A stretch of DNA of 64,000 bases from a virus. The notes under the pieces are model-generated. The model was not told where the DNA came from. It searched no databases and saw only the letters and a list, made by a program, of their open reading frames with translations. Positions within the stretch are counted from its first letter, which is position 1, and every line of letters begins with the position of its first letter. The translations under genes and the position numbers were made by a program. This document shows positions 12,045-61,778 of this stretch, in pieces. The stretch spans positions 250,001 through 314,000 of IMG/VR virus record IMGVR_UViG_3300025162_000016. One strand, given 5' to 3'.

Positions 12045-13316
12045 ATGGCAACTGTAATTAAAGAATTGCGATTAATCAACGTTGGGGTAGATGTGAACAT
12101 GAACCGCTGGTGGACGGGGCGAGTTTATGACAATGGGGACTTTGAAGCCGTGTGGGGACGGGTTGGTAATAGTGGGCAGAGTAAACTTTTCCCCGGTGGC
12201 GGAGAAACTAAACTGGAAGAGATGCGCCGGGACAAAATTAAGAAAGGTTATTCCGAACTGAAAACTGTTGGCGGTCCTGCTTCATCGGTTGTATCTGAAT
12301 CAAAACACATGGGCAATAGTGAACTTCGCCAAATCGCTAAAGCACAACTACTTAAAACCCAAAATCCCGTGCTGGATCGGTTGGTTGATCGGCTTATTCA
12401 AGCGAATGTTCATCGCATTACCACCTCTACTCAAATTCAGTTTAATTCTTCAACTGGATTGTTTAGTACTCCGCTCGGTATCGTTACTCCAGATGGCATT
12501 ACCGAAGCTCGTAATTTGCTGGTAACTTTAAATCATTGTGTTTCTCTCCGTGATTGGGCGTCTTATAAAATGTCGAGTGCGGTGAACCAGTATCTTCGCA
12601 TTGTTCCACAAAATGTGGGTATGAAACTGAGTGTCGAAGCTCTTTTTCCAGACGACGGAGCCATTCAAAAACAATCAAACATATTAGATTCCCTCGAATC
12701 TTCTTATCAAGCATTGCAGTCACAACCCGTCACTACCAATGCCACGGCAAAGTCAGTGGAGCAGGTATTCAAAGTGGATTTTGATGTGCTCAACGATCAG
12801 AAAGAGATTGATAGAATTGTACGGTGGTTTAATACGAGTAATAAGGCAATTCATGGATATTCGAATGTTAGGATCATGACTTTCCTAAAAATCAAAATTC
12901 ATGATAACTGGAACAGTTTTAATGAAAAAACTGGAAACATAAAGGAAATCTGGCATGGTAGCAGCGAAGCTAATTTGTTAAGTATTTTGAAAACGGGCCT
13001 AAAGGTAAGTCCTCCATCCACGACAACTCTCACCGGAAAAATGTTTGGTGAAGGTCACTATGGAGCGTTGGATAGTAGCAAATCCATGCAATATACATTT
13101 GGTAGGTTCAGTGGCCAGCATGGTAGTAGTGGATGGCTTTTTATTGCTGATTTTGCAATGGGGAATACATATTTTATCAATTCCTATGGCGGGAATAAAC
13201 CGGTCGGATACGATTCTATATGGGCAAAAGCGGCGAATACCGGACTGCGATTCGATGAACTGATTGTTCCGAGAGATAATCAAGTACGTCTCAAATATTT
13301 GATAGAAGTAAAATAG
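12045..13316 (+). CDS. WGR-domain poly(ADP-ribose) polymerase-like protein
   Basis: 423 aa. Residues about 5-75 form a WGR domain (NRWWTGRVY...AVWGRVGNSGQ). The C-terminal about 200 residues carry a PARP catalytic core: KEIWHGSSEANL (the HG NAD-binding motif), MFGEGHYGALDSSKSMQYT (the Y region) and FDELIVPRDNQVRLKYLIEV (the Glu of the H-Y-E triad). A helical linker separates them. It would transfer ADP-ribose from NAD to protein or nucleic acid. Its own leaderless promoter and the neighbouring macro domain and ADP-ribosylglycohydrolase suggest an ADP-ribose module. Confidence 0.8.
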   Translation: MATVIKELRLINVGVDVNMNRWWTGRVYDNGDFEAVWGRVGNSGQSKLFPGGGETKLEEMRRDKIKKGYSELKTVGGPASSVVSESKHMGNSELRQIAKAQLLKTQNPVLDRLVDRLIQANVHRITTSTQIQFNSSTGLFSTPLGIVTPDGITEARNLLVTLNHCVSLRDWASYKMSSAVNQYLRIVPQNVGMKLSVEALFPDDGAIQKQSNILDSLESSYQALQSQPVTTNATAKSVEQVFKVDFDVLNDQKEIDRIVRWFNTSNKAIHGYSNVRIMTFLKIKIHDNWNSFNEKTGNIKEIWHGSSEANLLSILKTGLKVSPPSTTTLTGKMFGEGHYGALDSSKSMQYTFGRFSGQHGSSGWLFIADFAMGNTYFINSYGGNKPVGYDSIWAKAANTGLRFDELIVPRDNQVRLKYLIEVK

Positions 13317-29856: not shown

Positions 29857-29892
29857 AGTAAAATGCCGGAACAGACCAGCCACTACATCACC
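29857..29892 (+). repeat. solitary CRISPR-repeat-like element 1 (degenerate)
   Basis: Matches the 3' two-thirds of the array repeat (GGAACAGACCAG core, ...TCACC end) in the crRNA-sense orientation; the 5' end has diverged. A promoter TTGACA-N17-TAGCAT (29822-29850) would start transcription at its first base. The ATG of the next gene follows at 29903. Confidence 0.65.
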
Positions 29893-30311: not shown

Positions 30312-30515
30312 ATGAAATTAAATGACCTACCACCATTAGATCAAGCAGAAATCATTGCAAACAGAATTGCCAATATGGATGCTCTACGGGAACACGCCTT
30401 GAAGAGTCGCAATCCAATTGAGTTGATGACGATTGAATTGGATGCACAGGCCAGACTTATGGGACTCAATATGGATTATTGTGAGGAATTAGATGATGAT
30501 GAATATGATCAATAA
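30312..30515 (+). CDS. small acidic protein
   Basis: 67 aa from the ATG at 30312; highly acidic C-terminus (CEELDDDEYDQ). No family. Confidence 0.5.
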   Translation: MKLNDLPPLDQAEIIANRIANMDALREHALKSRNPIELMTIELDAQARLMGLNMDYCEELDDDEYDQ

Positions 30516-30517
30516 TA

Positions 30518-30724
30518 ATGACTAAATCACAACTACAAAAACACTTGGGGACCAAGCTAACATTTGAATTAGAAACATTCAGGATGTTATTTACGGACCT
30601 AGATGATAACCAACGTTTGGAATTAATCAAATCCCTTATTTGGACTTCGATTGACGCTCACGCTATGCATAAACGAGTTGTTAACGCAATTTTAAATCCT
30701 TCTTTTGAGAAAACACTTGATTAA
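30518..30724 (+). CDS. small protein, unknown function
   Basis: 68 aa beginning MTKSQLQKHLGTKLTFELE. A fragment of this N-terminus is duplicated in the 31880 ORF. Confidence 0.5.
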   Translation: MTKSQLQKHLGTKLTFELETFRMLFTDLDDNQRLELIKSLIWTSIDAHAMHKRVVNAILNPSFEKTLD

Positions 30725-30987: not shown

Positions 30988-31011
30988 CATCAAAATACAG
31001 TTAAACAAAAT

Positions 31012-31431
31012 ATGACAAAATATAAAAAAATAATATGGGGTTTTGAACCTACTGATGATGTAACTTGTCTGGAACTTCCACAGAGGATTGCTTTTACTTT
31101 CGGTTATAATTGGGAAACGTCTACCATATATTCGAGAATGATTCCAATGGTTATAACTGATAAGAATTTTCGAGTTGGATTTGATCCCAACAGAAAATTA
31201 ATGAATCTGGTTAAGGATTATAAATCCTCGGAATATTTGGTAGTATGGACAGGTGAATTTTTGATTAAAATGTTAAATAATCCTCCGTTGAATCCAATAG
31301 TAATCGAATCTACTGACGGTAAACTATCGGTTCACATTGAATCGGATAATGTGGTTTTTGTGGATAGCGATAAGTCGATTCAAGTTAGTGTTCCAAAGAA
31401 ATTAGTACGGCAGACGGCGGGATTGTGTTAG
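31012..31431 (+). CDS. unknown protein, paralogue of the 32129 gene
   Basis: 139 aa. Y..KIIWGFEPTDD...QRIAFTFGYNWE...FDPN and W......NPP align with the product of 32129-32680, so the two are duplicates. C-terminus lies in a 43-bp tandem duplication. No known family. Confidence 0.6.
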   Translation: MTKYKKIIWGFEPTDDVTCLELPQRIAFTFGYNWETSTIYSRMIPMVITDKNFRVGFDPNRKLMNLVKDYKSSEYLVVWTGEFLIKMLNNPPLNPIVIESTDGKLSVHIESDNVVFVDSDKSIQVSVPKKLVRQTAGLC

Positions 31432-31469
31432 TGTTCCAAAGAAATTAGTATGGCAGACGGCGGGATTGT
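31384..31469. repeat. 43-bp tandem duplication
   Basis: Two adjacent 43-bp units starting GTTAGTGTTCCAAAGAAATT at 31384 and 31427, differing at one base. The second unit changes the 3' end of the 31012 gene. Confidence 0.85.
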
Positions 31470-31493
31470 TATTAAAATAGAATAAAGACTCCA

Positions 31494-31519
31494 TCGAACG
31501 AAAGATGGGGCTTCTTTTT
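31494..31519 (+). terminator. rho-independent terminator
   Basis: Stem AGACTCCATC/GATGGGGCTT with an 8-nt loop, followed by CTTTTTG. Confidence 0.8.
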
Positions 31520-31545
31520 GTATATAGTTGGATATTTATATCTAT

Positions 31546-31887
31546 ATGATTAAACTTAAAGATATAATATTAGAATTTTTTGATAGATATTGGACATTGG
31601 AAATGGCTAAACCAATAGCCGATAAACTTGGGGCAAAAATAGTTGGTTCTGTTGCTAAATATGGAAAATCAAATCATGATTTAGATCTTAGAGTCGAACA
31701 TAATGACATTTTATCTATAACAAAAATTTTAAATATTTTGGGTTTTGAATCATATGGAAGTGAAGTAGTTTCACCAGAAGAAGCAAAAAAATCCAAAAAT
31801 ATATATGGAAAAGGTTGGCAAAGAGCATATAATTTTATAAATAAAGATGATAAAATAATTCAAATTTGGATGGATCAAAATGATTAA
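31546..31887 (+). CDS. minimal nucleotidyltransferase-like protein with MIKLKDI leader
   Basis: 113 aa from the ATG at 31546. VGSVAKYGKSNHDLDLRVEHND fits the GS....DxDL core of the pol-beta nucleotidyltransferase superfamily. The N-terminus MIKLKDIILEFF matches the leader on the ADP-ribosyltransferase-like and HExxH proteins at 44-45.8 kb, so it may be packaged in the capsid. Confidence 0.5.
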   Translation: MIKLKDIILEFFDRYWTLEMAKPIADKLGAKIVGSVAKYGKSNHDLDLRVEHNDILSITKILNILGFESYGSEVVSPEEAKKSKNIYGKGWQRAYNFINKDDKIIQIWMDQND

Positions 31888-31987
31888 ATTAAAAGATATA
31901 ATAGATATGACCAAATTACAACTACGAAAACACTTGGGGACCAAGCTAACATTTGACAATGTGGAACTTGCGAAATATGGCGTTTGA
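31880..31987 (+). CDS. 35-aa chimeric ORF
   Basis: MIKLKDIIDMTKLQLRKHLG continues to a TGA at 31985. The first nine residues match the leader motif and the rest matches the start of the 30518 gene. Probably a recombination product. Confidence 0.35.
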   Translation: MIKLKDIIDMTKLQLRKHLGTKLTFDNVELAKYGV

Positions 31988-32074
31988 TGTTGACAAATCA
32001 GGGATAATAGAATACATTACCGCTCGCAAATTGATACACGGTTTTTTGATAATACGATAGTTACAATGGATACA
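31961..32074 (+). promoter_or_regulatory. duplicate CRISPR leader
   Basis: About 110 bp matching, at roughly 85%, the leader of the main array read on its transcribed (minus) strand (48345-48460). It includes TTGACA (31990-31995), 17-nt spacer, TACATT (32013-32018), the CCGCTCGCAA box and AATTGATACAC. It leads directly into one CRISPR repeat at 32075. Confidence 0.85.
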
Positions 32075-32110
32075 GGTGAAGTGCTGGAACAGATCAGATA
32101 CTATATCACC
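32075..32110 (+). repeat. solitary CRISPR repeat 2, with its own leader
   Basis: 36 nt, two mismatches to the array repeat (C to T and T to A in the centre), both ends GGTGA/TCACC intact. No second repeat follows, so a transcript would be leader-repeat plus the 5' part of the 32129 gene. Confidence 0.85.
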
Positions 32111-32128
32111 ACCACCCAGAATAAAAAT

Positions 32129-32680
32129 ATGAAAAATATGAAAAATATGAAAAACTACAGGAAAATAGTATGGTCATTCAATCCTTCGATTGACAGCGAA
32201 GTCATTCAGAGGATTGCATTTAGTTTCGGATACGATTGGGAGGACAATGACAGTTATGATGCTCTGACTAAGATAATTTTTTCTGAGGAGAGGATGATGT
32301 TTGATCCTAACACAAAGAAAATCTCGGCGGTTCATTGTAAATATGATTGCACACACACACGTTGGACGTCTAGTCTGCCCCATTTCATGGAATCCCTCAA
32401 AGACCCTCCTGAAATTATTCCAACTGTCTCTTCACCGGCACCGGATACAAAATCGAATCTAAACTTTCCGGTGGTCAGCTTTATGTATCACGACAAGATT
32501 CGTCGGGTTCGGGTTACTAAAATGTATGATAACCACCTGGAAGGGTTTGAAACCTCCTGTGGCGGGAAACCCTACCTAATAGAATCCTACAAGAAATATC
32601 GGATTGATGAGATGGAATCCGATGTTGTCTTGATAAGTTTCGTGCAAGATATTCCCAAAACTATAGATTACGAACCATGA
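32129..32680 (+). CDS. unknown protein, paralogue of the 31012 gene
   Basis: 183 aa from the first of three in-frame ATGs (32129, 32138, 32147; MKNMKNMKNYRKIVW). A longer frame from 32066 would run through the CRISPR repeat and is rejected. Shares YRKIVWSFNPS...QRIAFSFGYDWE with the 31012 protein and adds a C-terminal beta-rich domain. Confidence 0.6.
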   Translation: MKNMKNMKNYRKIVWSFNPSIDSEVIQRIAFSFGYDWEDNDSYDALTKIIFSEERMMFDPNTKKISAVHCKYDCTHTRWTSSLPHFMESLKDPPEIIPTVSSPAPDTKSNLNFPVVSFMYHDKIRRVRVTKMYDNHLEGFETSCGGKPYLIESYKKYRIDEMESDVVLISFVQDIPKTIDYEP

Positions 32681-32790
32681 CTAAAGATGAGTTGCAAGAA
32701 ATCCTAATGCAGTGCTGGCATAGGGAAACATCGGTGGATGACGCATTGGACGCCATCTGTGGAGAAACGATGGTCGAGGAAACGCTGTGA
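32677..32790 (+). CDS. 37-aa protein, truncated paralogue of the 33344 gene
   Basis: MTKDELQEILMQCWHRETSV overlaps the previous stop (ATGA). It matches residues 10-50 of the 33344 protein and ends early at VEETL, so it is a shortened duplicate. Confidence 0.5.
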   Translation: MTKDELQEILMQCWHRETSVDDALDAICGETMVEETL

Positions 32791-32811
32791 CTGAATGCAG
32801 ACGAATTGCGT

Positions 32812-32847
32812 GGTGAAGTGCTGGAACAGACCAGCTACTATATCACC
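32812..32847 (+). repeat. solitary CRISPR repeat 3
   Basis: 36 nt with a single mismatch to the array repeat, GGTGA/TCACC ends intact, crRNA-sense on the plus strand. Intergenic; no second repeat nearby. Confidence 0.85.
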
Positions 32848-32965
32848 TTGTATGGTATGAATGATTGCTGGAACCCGGTTGACCTAGCGGCTGAATATGA
32901 TGCTCTCATAGTTCAACCGGAAAACGATTGACAAATTAATATAATTCTGATAGTCTTTACCCACA

Positions 32966-33298
32966 ATGAAAAACGAACAATTGAAGTGGTTTCCATATTA
33001 CCAGAATAACAGCGGGGGCACGCTCCTAATTGACAACGAGGTTGCCGAGACAGTATATGTCCAAGCTCATTCCGCCAATGAGGCGAATAAAATTGCTGAA
33101 TCACATGGTATCTATTTCGACGGTTGCACCGAGGGAACAGATTGTTCCTGCTGTGGAGATCGTTGGAGTCGAACTATTGACCGATGCGGAACGGATGTTC
33201 CCTGCCACTATGGGAAGCCGATTTCGTCGTGGGACGTGCCTGACAACGGAGTTGATAAGACTCGCCGTTATCGACGGTTTCATCGGTTCGGTCTGTGA
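32966..33298 (+). CDS. small Cys-rich protein, unknown function
   Basis: 110 aa. GCTEGTDCSCCGDRW and RCGTDVPCHYG could bind zinc. N-terminal part AETVYVQAHSANEANKIAES resembles small phage proteins that carry a zinc-knuckle insert. First of the cassette genes. Confidence 0.55.
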   Translation: MKNEQLKWFPYYQNNSGGTLLIDNEVAETVYVQAHSANEANKIAESHGIYFDGCTEGTDCSCCGDRWSRTIDRCGTDVPCHYGKPISSWDVPDNGVDKTRRYRRFHRFGL

Positions 33299-33343
33299 AT
33301 CGGGCTTGACTTATTATAATAATTCTGATAGTCTTTACCCAAG

Positions 33344-33637
33344 ATGAAAAACACACAAAGCAATGACGTGATGACTAAAGACGAGATGCAAAAACTCCTA
33401 ATGCAGTGCTGGCATAGGGAAATATCGGTGGAAGAAGCTATGGCATCATTTATCTGGGTAGAACCGCTGGTCGAGGAAACGCTGGGAACGAATGTCGAGG
33501 TTAATGATGAGTGTCTTGAGGCTTTGCAGCCGGTAGATAAAAAAACAGATGATTTTTATTACACTGGAATCCCTGACATAGATATGCGGCGGGTGATTCA
33601 AATGGAAGCCAATAGAATATATTCAGATCGAAGTTGA
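33344..33637 (+). CDS. small acidic protein, unknown function
   Basis: 97 aa, contains MTKDEMQKLLMQCWHREISV, shared with the 32677 peptide. No known family. Confidence 0.55.
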   Translation: MKNTQSNDVMTKDEMQKLLMQCWHREISVEEAMASFIWVEPLVEETLGTNVEVNDECLEALQPVDKKTDDFYYTGIPDIDMRRVIQMEANRIYSDRS

Positions 33638-33671
33638 CATTGTATAATAATTCTGATAGTCTTTACCCAAG

Positions 33672-33872
33672 ATGAGCACAGACTATATAAACAGATCAGA
33701 ATTTGACGGATTAACGGATTGGCAGAAGCGGTTGTTGATGCGTTGGGGCCGGCGATATGGAGCAGGTTATCCTCCCGGCAGGCCGTTGGCCTTGGCTTCC
33801 ATGAAATTCAACAAGCGATATAGTTATGATCGAATTGACCAGAGGTTTATAAACTGGCTTTACACTTACTAA
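33672..33872 (+). CDS. 66-aa basic protein
   Basis: Arg/Tyr/Trp rich (LTDWQKRLLMRWGRRYGAGY). Start set by the cassette promoter. No family. Confidence 0.5.
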   Translation: MSTDYINRSEFDGLTDWQKRLLMRWGRRYGAGYPPGRPLALASMKFNKRYSYDRIDQRFINWLYTY

Positions 33873-33927
33873 AATAATTCAGATCGAAGTTGACATTTTA
33901 GAATAACTCTGATAGTCTTTACCCGAG

Positions 33928-34155
33928 ATGAAAAACGAAGAACTTGTATTATTGCTTAAGGCTGCATTTGCGGCGGGGTTCCGTTACGGGCACGACGCCG
34001 GGGCGGATGCAGAATGGGGCCATGGATGTTCAATAAGTAACAAGCCACAAACGCCGGATAAGGCGTGGTCGGAGGATGTCCAATGGAGGATCGACACCGA
34101 TAGTAGTTATCACCTGGATGTTGAAAACCGAGAGCATTGGAACAACGTTCCATAG
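33928..34155 (+). CDS. 75-aa protein, unknown function
   Basis: N-terminal helix MKNEELVLLLKAAFAAGFRYGHD. The composition is much more GC-rich than surrounding genes, hinting at recent acquisition. Confidence 0.5.
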   Translation: MKNEELVLLLKAAFAAGFRYGHDAGADAEWGHGCSISNKPQTPDKAWSEDVQWRIDTDSSYHLDVENREHWNNVP

Positions 34156-47168: not shown

Positions 47169-47369
47169 ATGACTATTTCAATTAAAACCGCATCTCGTAA
47201 AGATATTCAGCAGTTCCAACGATGGGTTAAGTTACAACCTTGGTCTGAAATATCTTTTCTCCACGAAACTTACCTCCGAGATGATTGCCGTGAAGAAAAA
47301 TTGAAAATTCTCTTCGCCAAATTCTCCGCTCTACCACTAAATCAACGGTTTCCAGCGGGTGATAGGTGA
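47169..47369 (+). CDS. 66-aa protein, unknown function
   Basis: Start 47169 follows TTGACT-N17-TACATA with 7 nt between. Contains KTASRKDIQQFQRWVKLQPW. Its last codons enter the terminal CRISPR repeat (47365), so its 3' end was shaped by the array. Confidence 0.5.
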   Translation: MTISIKTASRKDIQQFQRWVKLQPWSEISFLHETYLRDDCREEKLKILFAKFSALPLNQRFPAGDR

Positions 47370-48344
47370 TATAGTGACTGGTCTGTTCCAGCACTTCACC
47401 GGCGAAGCACCTGCTCGGCAAGGACCGCTACCACGAGGTGGTGATATAGTAACTGGTCTGTTCCAGCACTTCACCATTACCGATGTTTCTTTATAGCATA
47501 TACATATAACGGCGGTGATATAGTAACTGGTCTGTTCCAGCACTTCACCTAGGCGACTGAGTTAGGGGCTTTTCCTATATAGCGGTGGTGATATAGTAAC
47601 TGGTCTGTTCCAGCACTTCACCTGAATATGCATTGCCTCTGGTGCAACAATTCGGATAGGTGATATAGTAACTGGTCTGTTCCAGCACTTCACCCAGATA
47701 GAAGATGATAAACCGGATTCTCTACTGATGGTGATATAGTAACTGGTCTGTTCCAGCACTTCACCTTGAAAGGATACCATAGGAAGGATATGTATTACTC
47801 ATGGTGATATAGTAACTGGTCTGTTCCAGCACTTCACCTAGAGTTTGCTTTTGATGAAAGCCAATATGCTGCGGGTGATATAGTAACTGGTCTGTTCCAG
47901 CACTTCACCTCTTTTTTTATTGCTCTATGAGCAGAGACTTGGCTCTGGTGATATAGTAACTGGTCTGTTCCAGCACTTCACCTCTTTTTTTATTGCTCTA
48001 TGAGCAGAGACTTGGCTCTGGTGATATAGTAACTGGTCTGTTCCAGCACTTCACCGTAGAGTTCAGCACTTGGAATATCCATTACTATGATAGGTGATAT
48101 AGTAACTGGTCTGTTCCAGCACTTCACCCATATTTTCCAGTTGGTTCGGGCAAATCAATCGTGGGTGATATAGTAACTGGTCTGTTCCAGCACTTCACCT
48201 TCTTTACTCCATTCCCAGAAGGCTAATGCGAGCGGTGGTGATATAGTAACTGGTCTGTTCCAGCACTTCACCAAATGCAAGTTATCACTATATTTCGCCA
48301 ACTCGAACGGTGATATAGTAACTGGTCTGTTCCAGCACTTCACC
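47365..48344 (-). CRISPR. CRISPR array: 14 repeats, 13 spacers
   Basis: 36-bp repeats start at 47365, 47440, 47514, 47587, 47659, 47730, 47803, 47874, 47947, 48020, 48093, 48164, 48237 and 48309. Spacers are 35-39 bp. In the transcribed (minus) sense the repeat begins GGTGAAGTGCTGG, has a CTGG/CCAG hairpin around AACAGA and ends TATATCACC, with 5-bp terminal inverted repeats GGTGA/TCACC. The leader-distal repeat (47365) has one change. Spacers 47910-47946 and 47983-48019 are identical. Orientation is set by the leader promoter at 48401-48429. Confidence 0.98.
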
Positions 48345-48442
48345 TGTATCCCTCGTAAGTAACGTATTATCAAAGAACTGTGTATCAATTTGCGAGCGGC
48401 AGTGTATTCTATTATCCCCGGTTTGTCAACATCAAATATCAT
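48345..48442 (-). promoter_or_regulatory. CRISPR leader with promoter
   Basis: On the minus strand: TTGACA (48429-48424), 17-nt spacer, TACACT (48406-48401), then CCGCTCGCAA at the expected start site and about 50 nt of leader to the first repeat. The same leader is duplicated at 31961-32074. Confidence 0.85.
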
Positions 48443-48477
48443 ATTTCGTAAGTTCCATATTATCAGCGAGTTACAAG

Positions 48478-48522
48478 TTGCGAGCGGCTACGGCATATTT
48501 GACGCCACCTAACCGCTCGCAA
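48478..48522 (-). terminator. inverted repeat between cas3-like gene and leader
   Basis: 10-bp arms TTGCGAGCGG (48478-48487) and CCGCTCGCAA (48513-48522) right after the cas3-like stop. The same decamer occurs in the leader at 48390-48399 and in the duplicate leader, so it may be an operator as well as a terminator stem. Confidence 0.5.
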
Positions 48523-48523
48523 A

Positions 48524-50800
48524 TTAACATAAAAGTCCCAGCTCAATATCATAATTAATATGATAGTTATTCAATGCCCACATTGTAATTGGGTCATCGG
48601 CATCGTCCCGAATTTTCTCTAGCGGTTCAATAATTCCGGCATTAAGTAATCGTTGGTGTACATTTCCAAATACCGTTACCGAATTTCTGCTAATATCCGC
48701 ATATCCGAGGGTAATATCTTTAGATTTAATTCTTTCAATGACAGTCGGATCGATTACAACTGTAAATTTTTGAGTTTTTATCAATCGCATTAAATTACCT
48801 ACGGTGCGGAGATTTCCCTTGGAAAAGTTATCTTCAATCCGAGAAATCATATTCCAATTGCTAGTTGTTAACGTGTCTCTCGCTGCCGATGTTCCCATTG
48901 CCGGAATCCATTCATTTTTTTCTAATTTACGAAATACATTAATCGCTCTTTGTGTCGTAGGATTAATAGTTATTGTTCCCTTTCGGATTAATGATTCAGA
49001 AAAACAAAAAACATATACTTTTCCGATTTTAAATTCATTATTCCTATTACATCTTCCGGTGCATTGTTGAAGTGAATCTAAACTGGTTTCTTCTCGATAA
49101 CACCGCTCAAATGATATATCAATACCACATTCTACCATTGAGGTGGCAATTAATATGACCGGTAATTCATCTTTTATTTTTTGTTTTATTAATTCCAATC
49201 TTTTTTCTCTAAACTCCGGTGTCACTCGACTACTCAAATGATAGACATTCCCATTTCCGCTATTCAATAATTTAAATAAAACCTTCGCATTATTAGTGGT
49301 ATTACATACTATTAAAGTAGAATGTTTGTTTTTATATCCATTAGTTATATGCCGACATAATTTACCTAATCCAATAGCTCCCAGATGCGATTTTTTAACC
49401 CGTGTATTTTCTCTCGCCTGAAAATGCTTCCATTCCGTATGTGTAAGCATATTATCCACTACTATATTTTTATGATATAAATCCCAAAAATCAATGGGAG
49501 TCCCGGAACTAAAAATAACGTGAACATTATAATTGTTTACTAATTTTTCTAATAAAAATAACGCATGTGACCATAATTCATATGGCATCGCTTGATGATA
49601 CTCATCAAGAACAATGACCGAATCCGTAAAATGAATGAGTTTCCCTATCGCTGCGGGATGATAAGTAGTCAATGCCTCGAAAAATTGCACGCAAGTAGTA
49701 TACGTTAATGGACCATCTAATCTATTATTATATTTTCGCAACCGCCAATCTGTAAACTGAACCATAGAATGATGCTCGTTAATAACCCCTACCTGATACT
49801 CTCCCGGTAACAAAAGAGATTCTTTTGCTTTACCAACAAGTTGATTGATAACATTAATATATGGGGCCACAATAAATATTCGTTCACACCCATATTTTTT
49901 TGCCATTTTCAATGCCTTTTTATGATTAGCATTGGTTTTACCCGAACCTACCGTACCATCGTTTTTTATCCAAGATGAGATAGATTCCCTATCCGCCGAC
50001 GCATAAAGAAGCTTCCGATCTTTAATTCTTTTACCGGGATTTATTTTACTTAATCCATCATTATATTTATCAAAATTTTCAATACGCTCATCCTCTCGAA
50101 GTTTATATGGCTCAGGTAGCACATATCCATCATTACGAAATTGATTGGTGTCGGCGTGATCAGCAGACACCATGCAGGAAAAACACTCTGATATATCATG
50201 CCAATCAACATTTTTAATATTAATGTTATACCCAACATCCGGCATTGAATCCGTAATAATTATATCTTCTTTATGTAGTTGTTCCCATATAATAAGATTA
50301 GCATCTACATAATCTCTTATACGATAATCCCGCCATTTTTCTTTAAGATGTATTTTGGTCGGCGATAACATTTGTGACGGATTAACAAGAGTAATTTTAG
50401 TTAATTCTTCCCAATCTATATAACCAATATGATGAGCCAATATCAGCCACGCTGCTAAAAGATAATATAATTCATTGGTTCGTTCATATTCCTTAATACA
50501 ATGCGATACTCCTGCATCAACATGGTTAAGCATTGACGTATCGCTTTCGCTTGATTGTGAAAGAATTGCTTGACATTCCGGCATCAATTTTCCCAAATCA
50601 TGCCATTCTGTAGCAGTTTCAAGTATTTTCCGATAGAAATTTACCATTTTTCTATTCTTATAATGACGAAATCTACGATCAAACTCCCGCAAGGCGTTAT
50701 TACGTACCGCATGAATGTGATCCCGATATAATTGCGGAGCAACTGTACGGTTCGATGCGTTCACCTGATAACCGGAATGGGCAAAATTTTCTGTCAGCAT
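48524..50800 (-). CDS. cas3: Cas3-like HD nuclease-helicase
   Basis: 758 aa. HD domain in residues about 25-220: H30, H67-D68 (ATEWHDLGKL), H93 (NHVDAGV), H123-H124 (LAHHIGY), D215. SF2 helicase follows: Walker A 285-289 (VGSGKT), DEYH 399-402 (VIVLDEYHQAM), motif III-like SSGTP 431-435, TSMVECGID at 553-561 and motif VI QQCTGRCNR 578-586. Order HD then helicase and the DExH form match Cas3 of type I systems, where Cas3 degrades DNA after Cascade recruitment. No Cascade gene is here; the only effector is the divergent Cas12-like gene. A weak leaderless promoter (TTGACT-N16-TTAAGC) precedes it. Confidence 0.85.
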   Translation of the reverse strand: MLTENFAHSGYQVNASNRTVAPQLYRDHIHAVRNNALREFDRRFRHYKNRKMVNFYRKILETATEWHDLGKLMPECQAILSQSSESDTSMLNHVDAGVSHCIKEYERTNELYYLLAAWLILAHHIGYIDWEELTKITLVNPSQMLSPTKIHLKEKWRDYRIRDYVDANLIIWEQLHKEDIIITDSMPDVGYNINIKNVDWHDISECFSCMVSADHADTNQFRNDGYVLPEPYKLREDERIENFDKYNDGLSKINPGKRIKDRKLLYASADRESISSWIKNDGTVGSGKTNANHKKALKMAKKYGCERIFIVAPYINVINQLVGKAKESLLLPGEYQVGVINEHHSMVQFTDWRLRKYNNRLDGPLTYTTCVQFFEALTTYHPAAIGKLIHFTDSVIVLDEYHQAMPYELWSHALFLLEKLVNNYNVHVIFSSGTPIDFWDLYHKNIVVDNMLTHTEWKHFQARENTRVKKSHLGAIGLGKLCRHITNGYKNKHSTLIVCNTTNNAKVLFKLLNSGNGNVYHLSSRVTPEFREKRLELIKQKIKDELPVILIATSMVECGIDISFERCYREETSLDSLQQCTGRCNRNNEFKIGKVYVFCFSESLIRKGTITINPTTQRAINVFRKLEKNEWIPAMGTSAARDTLTTSNWNMISRIEDNFSKGNLRTVGNLMRLIKTQKFTVVIDPTVIERIKSKDITLGYADISRNSVTVFGNVHQRLLNAGIIEPLEKIRDDADDPITMWALNNYHINYDIELGLLC

Positions 50801-50916: not shown

Positions 50917-53900
50917 ATGACAAAAGAAAAAATCAAAAAAACCAAAAAGGCAAAAGTAGAAAAAGACTCCGTAACACGGGCGGGTATTTTGCGGATATTG
51001 TTGAATCCAGATCAACATCAAGAACTCGATACTCTCATCTCTGACCACCAAGAGGCTGCTAGAGAAATTCAGACTGCGACATATAAATTATCTGGACTAA
51101 AGCTATATGACAAAACCAACAACATGGTGGTCGATGGTAGCAAAGCAACCCCCGAAGAACAAGAGGCTTATTATAAAATAATTAATTGGGAAGGTCAGCC
51201 AATTTCAATTTCCAATCCAATGGTGCGGGCTACATTTAAAAGTATAGCGAAAGTCAAAGAAGATATTCGTCGAAAACAGGAAGAGTATGCTAAGCTTGAA
51301 GAAGCGGATTTGACAAAAATGTCAACCGGTGATGTAAAAAAACATAAAAATGAACTTAGAAAAGCAGCAAACAGAATTAAACATTCTGAAGAGATTCTTC
51401 AGTTTGCCAAATGGCGACTTGCCGACATTTTTCCGCTCCCTCTATCGCACAACTCTCAGTTACATCTTAAAAATAACTATCACCAAAATGTATTCAGTGG
51501 ATTCCATGCACGAGTTAAAGGATGGAACGCATGTGATATTGCGGCTCAAGCAAATTATGCTGAGATAGATAACCGATTAACGGAGTTGTCTTCGGAATTA
51601 TCCGGTGATTATGGGAGCGAAGTTATAACCGATTTGATGGGCTTGTTACAATACACTAAAGAACTAGGAGAAGGATACACGGATACTTCTTATTTGAATT
51701 ATAAATTTTTATCGTTTTTTAAGGAATGCTGGCGACCCAATGCAATTGCTAATAACACCGGATTGCTAGAAGGATTTTGGCTGGCAAATAATAAACACAC
51801 CAATAAAAAAAATCAAGTTGCTTATTCTTTCAATCCAAAAATTAGTGAAGAATTGTTCCGACGAAGAAGTTTATGGGAATCTGATAAATGCCTTTTGTCT
51901 GATCCAAGATTTGAAAAATATGTTGAATTATTTGATAAACATGGTCGTTATCGTAAAGGAGCTTCCCTTACTTTAATTTCAAAAGAATCTCCCATTCCAA
52001 TCGGTTTCTCAATGGATCGCAATGCGGCTAAATTAGTCCGTATAGATAATGATACCGCCAATCGTCAATTAACCATTACTATCGAACTTCCCAATAAAGA
52101 AGAACGTTCTTATGTAGCTGCGTATGGACGTAAACATGAAACTAAATGTTATTATAATGGGCTTACAACAAGATTACCTCGTAGTGAGAAGGAGTTGCTT
52201 GCATTAGCCAAAGCAGAAAATCGTGAACTCACGGACAAAGAAATACATGAGGCATCACTTGAAAAGTGTTATATTTTTGAATATGCCCGAGCCGGTAAAA
52301 TACCGGTGTTTGCTGTCGTAAAAACATTATATTTTCGACGCAACCCGTCTAATGGTGAATATTATGTTATTCTTCCAACTAATATTTTTGTTGAATATCA
52401 CGCCAATAATGAATTCAATTCCAAGGAATTATTCAAAATTAGATCGGAGCTCCAAAAGGCATGGGATGAAGTTCGCACGCCTAAACGTAATGTTCAAAGC
52501 TGTGTTTTGGATAAAGACCTAAGTAAACGTTTTGCCGGTAGAACTTTGAAATATGCGGGAATAGACCTTGGATATAGTAATCCATATACGGTTAGTTATT
52601 ATAACGTGGTGGGAACAGAAGAAGGTATTCAAATCAAAGAAACGGGAAATGAAATTGTTTCTACGGTTTTTAATGAACAGTATATTCAACTCAAAGGGAA
52701 TATATACCAACTTATAAATATCATTCGTGCCTCCCGTCGATACTTACAAGAGAGCGGTGAATTAAAGCTAAGTAAAGATGATATTAAAAGTTTTGATCAA
52801 CTCATGGAGTTACTCCCATCCGAACAACGAATTACTATCGATCAATTCATTAAAGATATTAAAAAAGCAAAACAAGAGGGAAAGTTAATACGAGACATTA
52901 AAGGAAAACTCCCGGTTGAAGGGAAAAAGAAAGAATATTGGGTTATCAGTAATTTAATGTATGTTATTACTCAAACAATGAATGGTATTCGGGGAAATAG
53001 AGATTCTAATAATCATCTCACCGAGAAGAAAAATTGGTTGTCGGCTCCCCCATTAATTGAATTGATTGATGCTTATTATAATCTTAAAAAAACATTCAAT
53101 GATTCCGGTGATGGAATTAAAATGCTTCCTAAAGATCATGTATATGCCGAAGGAGAAAAACAACGGTGTACTCTAAGAGAAGAAAACTTCTGTAAAGGTA
53201 TTTTAGAGTGGCGGGATAATGTTAAAGATTATTTCATTAAAAAATTATTCTCCCAAATCGCTCACCGCTGTTACGAATTAGGAATCGGTATCGTAGCAAT
53301 GGAGAATCTTGATATAATGGGATCATCTAAAAATACTAAACAAAGTAATCGTATGTTTAATATCTGGCCCAGAGGACAAATGAAAAAATCTGCCGAAGAT
53401 GCGTTTAGTTATATGGGTATATTAATCCAATATGTCGATGAAAATGGAACCAGTCGCCATGATGCCGATTCCGGTATTTATGGTTGTCGTGATGGTGCAA
53501 ATCTATGGCTACCTAATAAAAAATTGCACGCCGATGTAAACGCCTCTCGAATGATCGCTCTACGAGGACTTACTCATCATACTAATCTGTATTGTAGAAG
53601 TTTAACCGAAATAGAAAATGGAAAGTACGTTAATACATATGAATTGTTCGATACCACAAAAAATGACCAAAGTGGAGCGGCAAAACGACTCCGTGGAGCA
53701 GAAACTCTTCTACATGGTTATTCCGCTACCGTATACCAAATCCATACCACAAACACCGGTGCCGGTGTTGCCTTACTACCTGACTTAACTGCAACCGATG
53801 TCATTAAAAATAAAAAAATCACCGCCACAAAAGAAAATACAGCCAAATATTATAAATTAGATAATACTAATACCTACTACCCATGGAGTGTATGTGAAAA

Positions 53901-53928
53901 ACTTCACAAAAATTGGAAACTATCATAA
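50917..53928 (+). CDS. Cas12-like RuvC effector (type V, subtype unassigned)
   Basis: 1003 aa. Residues 1-20 are Lys rich. A long helical N-terminal half follows, then the split RuvC: motif I KYAGIDLGYSNP (D550), motif II GIVAMENLDIMG (E796), motif III LHADVNASRMIALRG (D873). The conserved R/D near GCRDGAN (about 857-862) is present, but the Cys4 ribbon usual between motifs II and III is reduced to one Cys (C857). A 130-residue C-terminal extension follows motif III. Size fits Cas12 rather than TnpB. It lies beside the array and divergent from the Cas3-like gene. I cannot place it in a named Cas12 subtype by eye. Confidence 0.85.
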   Translation: MTKEKIKKTKKAKVEKDSVTRAGILRILLNPDQHQELDTLISDHQEAAREIQTATYKLSGLKLYDKTNNMVVDGSKATPEEQEAYYKIINWEGQPISISNPMVRATFKSIAKVKEDIRRKQEEYAKLEEADLTKMSTGDVKKHKNELRKAANRIKHSEEILQFAKWRLADIFPLPLSHNSQLHLKNNYHQNVFSGFHARVKGWNACDIAAQANYAEIDNRLTELSSELSGDYGSEVITDLMGLLQYTKELGEGYTDTSYLNYKFLSFFKECWRPNAIANNTGLLEGFWLANNKHTNKKNQVAYSFNPKISEELFRRRSLWESDKCLLSDPRFEKYVELFDKHGRYRKGASLTLISKESPIPIGFSMDRNAAKLVRIDNDTANRQLTITIELPNKEERSYVAAYGRKHETKCYYNGLTTRLPRSEKELLALAKAENRELTDKEIHEASLEKCYIFEYARAGKIPVFAVVKTLYFRRNPSNGEYYVILPTNIFVEYHANNEFNSKELFKIRSELQKAWDEVRTPKRNVQSCVLDKDLSKRFAGRTLKYAGIDLGYSNPYTVSYYNVVGTEEGIQIKETGNEIVSTVFNEQYIQLKGNIYQLINIIRASRRYLQESGELKLSKDDIKSFDQLMELLPSEQRITIDQFIKDIKKAKQEGKLIRDIKGKLPVEGKKKEYWVISNLMYVITQTMNGIRGNRDSNNHLTEKKNWLSAPPLIELIDAYYNLKKTFNDSGDGIKMLPKDHVYAEGEKQRCTLREENFCKGILEWRDNVKDYFIKKLFSQIAHRCYELGIGIVAMENLDIMGSSKNTKQSNRMFNIWPRGQMKKSAEDAFSYMGILIQYVDENGTSRHDADSGIYGCRDGANLWLPNKKLHADVNASRMIALRGLTHHTNLYCRSLTEIENGKYVNTYELFDTTKNDQSGAAKRLRGAETLLHGYSATVYQIHTTNTGAGVALLPDLTATDVIKNKKITATKENTAKYYKLDNTNTYYPWSVCEKLHKNWKLS

Positions 53929-53929
53929 T

Positions 53930-53965
53930 CGCCAAATGTTGTAACATATCAGTTATTATATCACC
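53930..53965 (+). repeat. degenerate CRISPR-repeat-like element 4
   Basis: ATATCAGTTATTATATCACC at its 3' end matches the repeat tail; the 5' half has decayed. Starts 2 bp after the Cas12-like stop. Confidence 0.5.
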
Positions 53966-54153: not shown

Positions 54154-54189
54154 GGTGAAGTGCTGGAACAGACCAGTTACTATATCACC
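54154..54189 (+). repeat. solitary CRISPR repeat 5 (perfect match)
   Basis: 36 nt identical to the array repeat in crRNA sense on the plus strand. The preceding stretch ACATATCTACGTATTCTTAA is duplicated before the copy at 54355. No adjacent second repeat. Confidence 0.9.
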
Positions 54190-54354: not shown

Positions 54355-54390
54355 GGTGAAGTGCTGGAACATATCAGTTACTATACCACC
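54355..54390 (+). repeat. solitary CRISPR repeat 6
   Basis: Differs from the array repeat by changes that weaken the central hairpin (ACAGACC to ACATATC) and one near the end. Same upstream sequence as the 54154 copy, so a tandem duplication about 200 bp apart. Confidence 0.8.
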
Positions 54391-57082: not shown

Positions 57083-57118
57083 AGTGAAGTGCTGGAACAG
57101 ACCAGACACTATATCACT
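57083..57118 (+). repeat. promoter-linked CRISPR-repeat-like element 7
   Basis: AGTGAAGTGCTGGAACAGAC at the 5' end and TATATCACT at the 3' end: the outer pair G-C of the array repeat has become A-T at both ends, keeping the terminal inverted repeat. TTGACT with a TATGCA-type -10 lies just upstream (from about 57055). Confidence 0.8.
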
Positions 57119-57171: not shown

Positions 57172-57207
57172 AGTGAAGTGCTGGAACAGACCAGACACAA
57201 TAAGACG
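57172..57207 (+). repeat. promoter-linked CRISPR-repeat-like element 8
   Basis: Same 5' half as element 7, decayed 3' end. TTGATA-N16-TATAAT ends 7 nt before it, so the transcript would begin with the repeat. Confidence 0.75.
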
Positions 57208-57294: not shown

Positions 57295-57747
57295 ATGAAA
57301 AAACAAAATACGGAAGTAGTTGTTGTGACGGAAACGGAAACGGTAACGGCGACAGAAGTTAAGCGTGGGCGTGGGCGGCCCAGGTTTGAAATTAAGAAGC
57401 CGGAGACAAATACGTGGACAATGAATGATGTTAAGGCATTGAACCCTGATGTTTGTGCATTGAGTTTATATCAGCATAAGAATAGGTGGATTGCGGAAAA
57501 TTGGTGTGTGGATAGTGGGGAGCGAATTCCTACGGGCGGGGTGGGAAAGCCATTGACTGTGTTTATTGCGGTTGCGGCATTGCAACGGTCTAAGGCGGCA
57601 AAGAAGGCTGCAAAGACTCGTAAGATGAACAGCAAGCTTCCGGTGGCCCCTCCGGTGGATATGGTTGCGGTTCCGGTGACTGATACGGTTGCGGTGACTG
57701 ATGCGGTTCCGGTGACTGATGCGGTGGAGAATCTGGTGACGGTATAA
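57295..57747 (+). CDS. AT-hook-like DNA-binding protein with repetitive tail
   Basis: 150 aa. KRGRGRPRFEIKKP is an AT-hook (GRP core). The C-terminus repeats VAVTD/VPVTDAV units from an 18-nt DNA repeat. Likely binds AT-rich phage DNA. Confidence 0.55.
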   Translation: MKKQNTEVVVVTETETVTATEVKRGRGRPRFEIKKPETNTWTMNDVKALNPDVCALSLYQHKNRWIAENWCVDSGERIPTGGVGKPLTVFIAVAALQRSKAAKKAAKTRKMNSKLPVAPPVDMVAVPVTDTVAVTDAVPVTDAVENLVTV

Positions 57748-59894: not shown

Positions 59895-59930
59895 AGTGAA
59901 GTGCTGGAACAGACCAGTTACTATATCACT
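59895..59930 (+). repeat. promoter-linked CRISPR-repeat-like element 9
   Basis: Matches the array repeat except the outer G-C pair is A-T at both ends (AGTGA/TCACT). Preceded by TTGCATGTTCTGGAATATG and a TATATAT -10, the same upstream block as elements 7 and 10. Confidence 0.85.
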
Positions 59931-60031: not shown

Positions 60032-60067
60032 AGTGAAGTGCTGGAACAGACCAGTCACTAAAACACT
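60032..60067 (+). repeat. promoter-linked CRISPR-repeat-like element 10
   Basis: AGTGA start, TCACTAAAACACT end. Preceded by TTGCATGTTTCGGGGATAAG and TATATATGATAGAC as in element 9. Confidence 0.8.
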
Positions 60068-61189: not shown

Positions 61190-61225
61190 AGTGAATTACT
61201 GGAACAGACCAGTCACTATCAACTC
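61190..61225 (+). repeat. CRISPR-repeat-like element 12
   Basis: AGTGAATTACTGGAACAGAC at the 5' end and CAGTCACTATCAACT at the 3' end; overlaps an AACTCTAA-type palindrome at 61221. Confidence 0.7.
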
Positions 61226-61267: not shown

Positions 61268-61303
61268 AGTGAATTACTGGAACAGACCAGTCACTAAAAC
61301 ACT
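61268..61303 (+). repeat. CRISPR-repeat-like element 13
   Basis: Same variant as element 12 (GTGAATTACTGG) with a TCACTAAAACACT tail like element 10. A CCGGAGAAGG/CCTTCTCCGG hairpin (61305-61343) follows immediately. Confidence 0.75.
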
Positions 61304-61352: not shown

Positions 61353-61388
61353 AGTGACGTGCTGGGATATATCAGTCACTAAAACACT
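61353..61388 (+). repeat. CRISPR-repeat-like element 14
   Basis: AGTGACGTGCTGGGATATAT at the 5' end, CAGTCACTAAAACACT at the 3' end. Overlaps the 3' end of the 61372 minus-strand gene. Confidence 0.7.
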
Positions 61389-61734: not shown

Positions 61735-61778
61735 AGTGACGTGCTGGAACAGACCAGTCTCTATATCTCTATATCACT
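61735..61778 (+). repeat. CRISPR-repeat-like element 15 with 8-nt expansion
   Basis: AGTGACGTGCTGGAACAGAC then CAGTCTCTATATCTCTATATCACT; ends AGTGA/TCACT preserved, with CTATATCT duplicated. Confidence 0.7.

Follow-up and report, generated by a model that had tools for sequence, protein, structure and literature searches.

An orphan CRISPR leader and repeat ahead of a gene in a T4-like giant phage suggest a second role for CRISPR repeats, as control hairpins on phage mRNAs

A truncated copy of a phage's own CRISPR leader, ending in a single CRISPR repeat, lies directly ahead of a gene in the window analyzed here, which comprises 64,000 nt (positions 250001-314000) of the 368,758-bp (~369-kb) virus record IMGVR_UViG_3300025162_000016. 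The anatomy of this orphan cassette is firm. Together with further solitary repeats dispersed in the record, it suggests, at the level of sequence, that CRISPR repeats may double as control hairpins on phage mRNAs. The full mechanism which we favour, namely a captured promoter-plus-hairpin cassette that places a crRNA repeat in a 5' UTR, where the phage's own Cas12 would act on it, is put forward tentatively and with somewhat less than even confidence.

Results

The phage, its arrays and its effector

The T4-type major head protein (PHROG 138), portal protein and UvsX-like recombinase encoded in the record mark it as a T4-like giant phage; the ends of the record overlap, an ORF at 741 being found again at 362397. 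Four arrays in the record have one 36-nt repeat in common. That of the window (47365-48344, minus strand) has 13 spacers set between 14 copies of this repeat, and its full leader of 196 bp (48345-48540) occupies, together with the first repeat, positions 48309-48540 (-). The leaders of the other three arrays are 92-96% identical to it across the 196 bp. A Cas3-like helicase (48524-50800, minus strand; PADLOC Cas3c, E 1.2e-88) adjoins this leader, such that a Cas3c-like helicase stands beside a type V array; Pfam and PADLOC recognised no Cascade genes nearby. Spacers 5 and 6 of the window's array are identical, and the array at 333 kb includes a two-spacer block that is duplicated with its repeats (L020 19100-19213 and 19616-19729, one base different). 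The spacers of all four arrays gave no convincing match to the phage's own genome or to the relatives examined, and those of two arrays had zero matches when searched against phage records. Thus, no PAM could be derived, and there is no sign that the sequence behind a solitary repeat is a guide.

The type V effector of this phage is a Cas12 of divergent sequence, encoded at 50917-53928 (+) and 1003 aa long. The RuvC D-E-D motifs expected of such an effector (GIDLG, MEN and DVNA) were read from its sequence, and residues 745-905 match Cas12-2/CasJ19/Cas12X (E 3.3e-7), the similarity to characterised effectors being confined to the C-terminal part. The protein had no Pfam match and no other relative in phage records or IMG/VR, and may possibly represent a new type V subtype. 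A Cas1 search of the phage record was empty; the same search was positive in 9 of 14 control genomes.

Anatomy of the orphan cassette

The stretch 31954-32110 (+) aligns with 48465-48309 (-) over 157 bp, ungapped and at 88.5% identity (E 4e-54). It comprises 121 bp of leader (columns 76-196 of 196) and one 36-nt repeat. The leader part, 31954-32074 (+), is 86.8% identical to 48345-48465 (-) and, in an alignment of six leaders, retains the promoter, the transcription-start box and the leader-repeat junction, while the paired upstream boxes are gone. Its sigma-70-like promoter, TTGACA-N17-TACATT (31990-32018, +), matches the consensus at 10 of 12 positions, and the TTGACA (31990-31995) is invariant in the six leaders. 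The third leader box, CCGCTCGCAA (32020-32029, +), is as far from the repeat as its counterparts in the array leaders are; all 14 copies of this 10-mer in the 369-kb record belong to CRISPR leaders. On the left, a 57-bp duplicate of 30511-30567 (31900-31956, +; 89% identity) ends at the leader junction, as read from the sequence: the duplicate stops at 31956 and leader homology begins at 31954, the TGA belonging to both.

The solitary repeat (32075-32110, +) matches the array repeat at 34 of 36 positions, the mismatches being C20T and T24A, and keeps its hairpin. No second repeat lies within 100 bp, the next one being 737 bp off at 32812. The stretch is therefore neither a CRISPR array, in the sense of at least two repeats around a unique spacer, nor a complete leader, since the paired boxes at -178 to -133 are missing and the third box is kept.

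The gene behind the repeat (32147-32680, +) codes for 177 aa and has a paralogue at 31012-31431 (+), which has neither leader nor repeat upstream. The two products are 31% identical (tblastn E about 1e-11), and their start codons fall in the same alignment column; 32147 is thus the likely start, which would place the repeat in the 5' UTR, its end 36 nt before the start codon. The longest frame, which begins at ATG 32066, gives 204 aa and runs through the repeat, is the alternative to this start, and the paralogue favours 32147 as the likely one. No terminator-like site was found between the orphan promoter or repeat and the gene. The downstream protein had no match in Pfam, PHROGs or PADLOC, and neither the leader nor Cas12 nor the 204-aa protein had a counterpart in searches of known-phage DNA and proteins. 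With mean pLDDT values of 35 for Cas12 and 33 for the downstream protein, the AlphaFold models are unusable. An Rfam scan of the whole window and of 31000-34000 recovered tRNAs and no other RNA family.

These findings bear out much of a first-pass annotation of the window, which had described a leader duplicated on the opposite strand with its promoter and box (the identity exceeds the 70% limit set for it), TTGACA at 31990, for which TACATT is present 17 bp downstream, a single repeat with two mismatches and a paralogous gene directly downstream. The duplication of "about 110 bp" is real, and its leader part is slightly longer than stated. A crRNA-like 5' end on the mRNA of the gene, as had been proposed, is supported as the product to be expected from a promoter, repeat and gene in line.

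The repeat hairpin

The array repeat is predicted to fold into a 13-pair hairpin (-13.0 kcal/mol, z -2.9), and the copy at 32075 folds at -10.0 kcal/mol (z -2.2). Its change C20T converts a G-C pair to G-U and T24A lies in a bulge, so that the hairpin is still foldable. In the solitary copies of the form AGTGA..TCACT (6 distinct copies), the closing pair is A-U in place of G-C, both partners having changed, and the observed number of double changes in the repeat was reached in 6 of 500 shuffles. Covariation in the repeat ends thus lends modest support to the predicted hairpin; shared descent could also yield paired changes.

A second orphan and other solitary repeats

An additional, independent orphan, again a truncated leader with one repeat, is located at 229787-229920 of the record (229.8 kb). 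It starts at a different leader position, has a 34-bp deletion adjoining the repeat and, in the six-leader alignment, has TACACT changed to the better TATACT. Both orphans have kept the promoter, have lost the paired boxes and contain zero spacers. Altogether, about 19 solitary repeats are present in the record, i.e., the two orphans and 17 others, and all 19 are on the plus strand. The first-pass annotation was thus right in recognising an orphan leader, and had overlooked, in counting a second leader and one array, the four arrays, the second orphan and the solitary repeats.

The 17 others have 26-36 matching bases and lie at record positions 12987, 279857, 282812, 303930, 304154, 304355, 307083-311735 (eight copies), 314770, 330454 and 350540. 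Beyond the orphans, 14 match at 29 of 36 positions or better, compared to a best of 25/36 for shuffled repeats in the same DNA. Only 2 of the 19 lie wholly within ATG-initiated ORFs of at least 120 aa, which make up 73% of the record, and one of these two is the 32075 copy, inside by the longest-frame rule only.

Within the window, all on the plus strand, a degenerate copy (29857-29892, 29/36) is found 10 nt upstream of an ORF and a nearly perfect one (35/36) at 32812-32847. Three copies occupy the 3' flank of cas12: a degenerate repeat (53930-53965, 27/36) 1 nt past the stop codon, a perfect one (54154-54189, 36/36) and one of 33/36 (54355-54390), the latter two having an upstream module in common. 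There is no terminator-like site between them; cas12 would therefore share any repeat-based control, and autoregulation through these 3' copies is possible on this arrangement. The remaining eight are AGTGA variants. Those at 57083-57118 (AGTGA..TCACT) and 60032-60067 lie upstream of the genes at 57295 and 60154, respectively, and the latter has an upstream module in common with the AGTGA..TCACT copy at 59895-59930. The others are found at 57172-57207 (degenerate, 29/36), 61190-61225 (27/36), 61268-61303 (29/36), 61353-61388 (26/36) and 61735-61770 (30/36). Some AGTGA copies are found at the 3' end of a gene or on the strand antisense to one. The possibility that the AGTGA clusters are decayed arrays was rejected: their intervals, of 25-101 nt, contain promoters and a terminator, whereas the array spacers measure 34-41 nt (one of 50).

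The copied unit

When the 60 bp on each side of every solitary and first repeat were compared, upstream flanks were found to be common in four families: the leader (229885, 282075 and the arrays), 330454/350540, 304154/304355 and 309895/310032. No pair of solitary repeats was alike in its downstream flanks over the same 60 bp. The copied unit is thus an upstream module plus repeat, ending at the repeat 3' end. Truncated genes are present at the junctions at 31956 of the window and 330489 of the record.

Other repeated elements were observed in this genome. A dispersed promoter element whose copies end in GGTAACTAT occurs at L020 16204-16490, L021 16446-16575, L007 6806-7104, L018 17043-17370 (-) and L022 7526-7874 (-), and at two of these five places a CRISPR repeat follows it immediately. 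The repeat at 330454 is followed by a gene remnant consisting of the C-terminal part only, a longer version of which exists in the relative phage G004. TnpB right ends are at most a candidate source of the module before 330454 and 350540, as it also appears elsewhere without an adjoining TnpB end. Between 32908 and 35178 of the window, a 45-70-bp cassette of promoter plus start codon (TTGAC..CTGATAGTCTTTACCCAAGATG) is repeated five to six times before small genes.

The three-box leader

Full leaders carry TTGCGAGCGG-N25-CCGCTCGCAA at -178 to -133 and a third box, CGCTCGCAA, from -54. The three boxes recur in 12 leaders, from phages as well as bacteria, ahead of arrays with unrelated repeats; across these, the paired boxes start at about -178 to -236, and the third box, exact or nearly exact, at -52 to -54. 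Four of the leaders belong to the present phage (window 48345-48540(-), L007 9613-9808(-), and L020 17377-17572 and 18868-19063(+)), and the others are at L108 9271-9448, L151 8332-8524, L154 10756-10991, L155 950-1140, L165 1815-1990, L170 5750-5953, L171 2868-3071 and L172 5433-5621. Carriers include the relative phage G004, G034 (beside a type I-C-like Cas7) and G035 (Cas12f/u-like), and the bacterial examples come from Azospirillum, Roseomonas, Pirellulaceae and Myxococcota, the Myxococcota locus encoding the type I-G integrase Cas4g/Cas1g. The motif looks like an integrase recognition site, and a literature search found no paper describing it. Since no Cas1 was found in the phage, its arrays may imitate the leaders of host integrases.

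Distribution of the repeat

Among 33 records of relatives (major capsid protein, MCP, identity 59-83%), neither the repeat nor this Cas12 was found. One relative, G004, has two CRISPR arrays (68803-69270 and 112502-112681; L108 and L110) with two other 36-nt repeats, one of them under a three-box leader, and zero solitary copies. Arrays without solitary copies indicate that repeat dispersal is not general; it is a feature of the present genome, the sole one of its kind found. The repeat is absent from about 85,000 GTDB representative genomes, and its matches in IMG/VR are confined to contigs of one sample.

Discussion

In the reading that we favour, the promoter half of the phage's leader and the first repeat would have been joined before a phage gene by illegitimate recombination. 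The leader promoter would then make an mRNA with a CRISPR repeat in its 5' UTR, 36 nt before the start codon. The phage's own Cas12, whose processing of pre-crRNA is itself putative here, would bind the repeat hairpin and possibly cut it as in pre-crRNA, in which case the mRNA level of the gene would track the level of the effector. From this arrangement we infer that Cas12 may act on the orphan mRNA. The same control might extend to further genes whose leaders contain a solitary repeat, and to cas12. The AGTGA copies at 3' ends or antisense do not fit a pure 5' UTR role. In a broader version, which we regard as rather unlikely, the repeat hairpin would have been distributed over the 5' leaders and 3' tails of numerous phage mRNAs, including that of cas12, and the nuclease, besides cutting invaders, would set the timing or the limits of expression of the phage's own genes.

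The capture of a promoter alone, with the repeat as a passenger whose hairpin would at most stabilise the mRNA, as may also be the case for the stem-loops of promoter cassettes in T4-like phages, and with Cas12 uninvolved, is quite conceivable, though we lean against it. The promoter is kept in both orphans and is improved from TACACT to TATACT in the one at 229.8 kb, the region contains further duplicated promoter cassettes, and PeSL cassettes are cited in PMC4503421 as shuffling the genes of T4-like phages. A passenger would not explain, however, why 14 further solitary repeats persist at 29/36 or better, nor why the repeat terminates upstream modules of four kinds or more. In a further view, repeats served as homology for shuffling, and the solitary copies would be relics of past crossovers with no function today. 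Genes cut short at the junctions 31956 of the window and 330489 of the record would fit such events, and the repeat end forms the border in every family with common flanks. Crossover at repeats nevertheless predicts pairs with common downstream and unlike upstream flanks, none of which were seen, and the strand and intergenic biases would be left unexplained; we therefore consider this origin improbable.

The first-pass annotation had also suggested a decoy or a one-repeat mini-array open to extension, and neither proposal was supported. A decoy, or RNA anti-CRISPR (Racr/SRU), would be a small repeat RNA that ties up Cas proteins, whether those of the host or of a rival phage or the effector of this phage itself, and a solitary repeat right behind a promoter is the usual anatomy of SRUs (PMC10651486). 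The repeat, however, matches the phage's own four arrays, was not met in the GTDB genomes and is known in IMG/VR from the one sample. In addition, a repeat that is followed directly by a gene, with no intervening terminator, would not most obviously yield a small non-coding RNA. We thus assign this explanation little probability. A mini-array that can still acquire spacers, or a former array that has lost all of them, would account for the leader-repeat junction and third box being in register at 32075, and the leader type is that of bacterial Cas4/Cas1 systems, such that host integrases might act on phage arrays. Both orphans nonetheless lack the paired boxes of the 12 leaders, the one at 229.8 kb is also without the junction sequence, neither has gained a spacer, and no Cas1 match exists in the phage record. 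These losses make an extendable array very improbable.

The captured promoter-plus-hairpin cassette resembles several known systems in part. Lone viral CRISPR repeats are mostly interpreted as decoys that counter the immunity of the host. The present ones occur in a phage that has four arrays and a Cas12 of its own to match them, and one or more of them belong to a promoter-plus-hairpin unit before a gene. The RNA anti-CRISPRs (SRUs/Racr) are lone repeats behind promoters, away from cas genes (PMC10651486). The orphan is likewise a single, solitary repeat on a viral genome, right after a promoter. In contrast, Cas12 and four arrays with the same repeat are present in this phage, a gene follows the repeat, the promoter comes from the phage's own leader, and the copies are many. 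Virus-borne mini-CRISPR arrays hold spacers, mostly against related viruses (PMC6858448); they too consist of very few repeats on a virus, whereas the orphans have zero spacers. In engineered yeast, Cas12a variants and CasPhi2 degrade mRNAs with a pre-crRNA fragment in the 5' or 3' UTR (PMC9943656). The likeness lies in a CRISPR repeat in an mRNA UTR, open to a type V effector; that system is synthetic, whereas the present arrangement is natural and the action of the effector on it is putative. To our knowledge, control of its carrier's mRNAs by a CRISPR effector via repeat hairpins has so far been engineered only. If Cas12 acts on the repeats, this phage would offer a natural case. Even without such action, a CRISPR leader would have been recruited as an ordinary promoter, with repeats spreading as regulatory modules.

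Promoter stem-loop units known as PeSLs are reportedly scattered in T4-like genomes, at junctions of shuffled small genes. The present cassette has a host-type (early) promoter with an adjacent stem-loop, and it likewise occurs in several copies at shuffled-gene junctions, as seen in the two leader copies, the four module families and the truncated neighbours. It differs in that the promoter and stem-loop are a CRISPR leader and repeat, with the loop downstream of the promoter.
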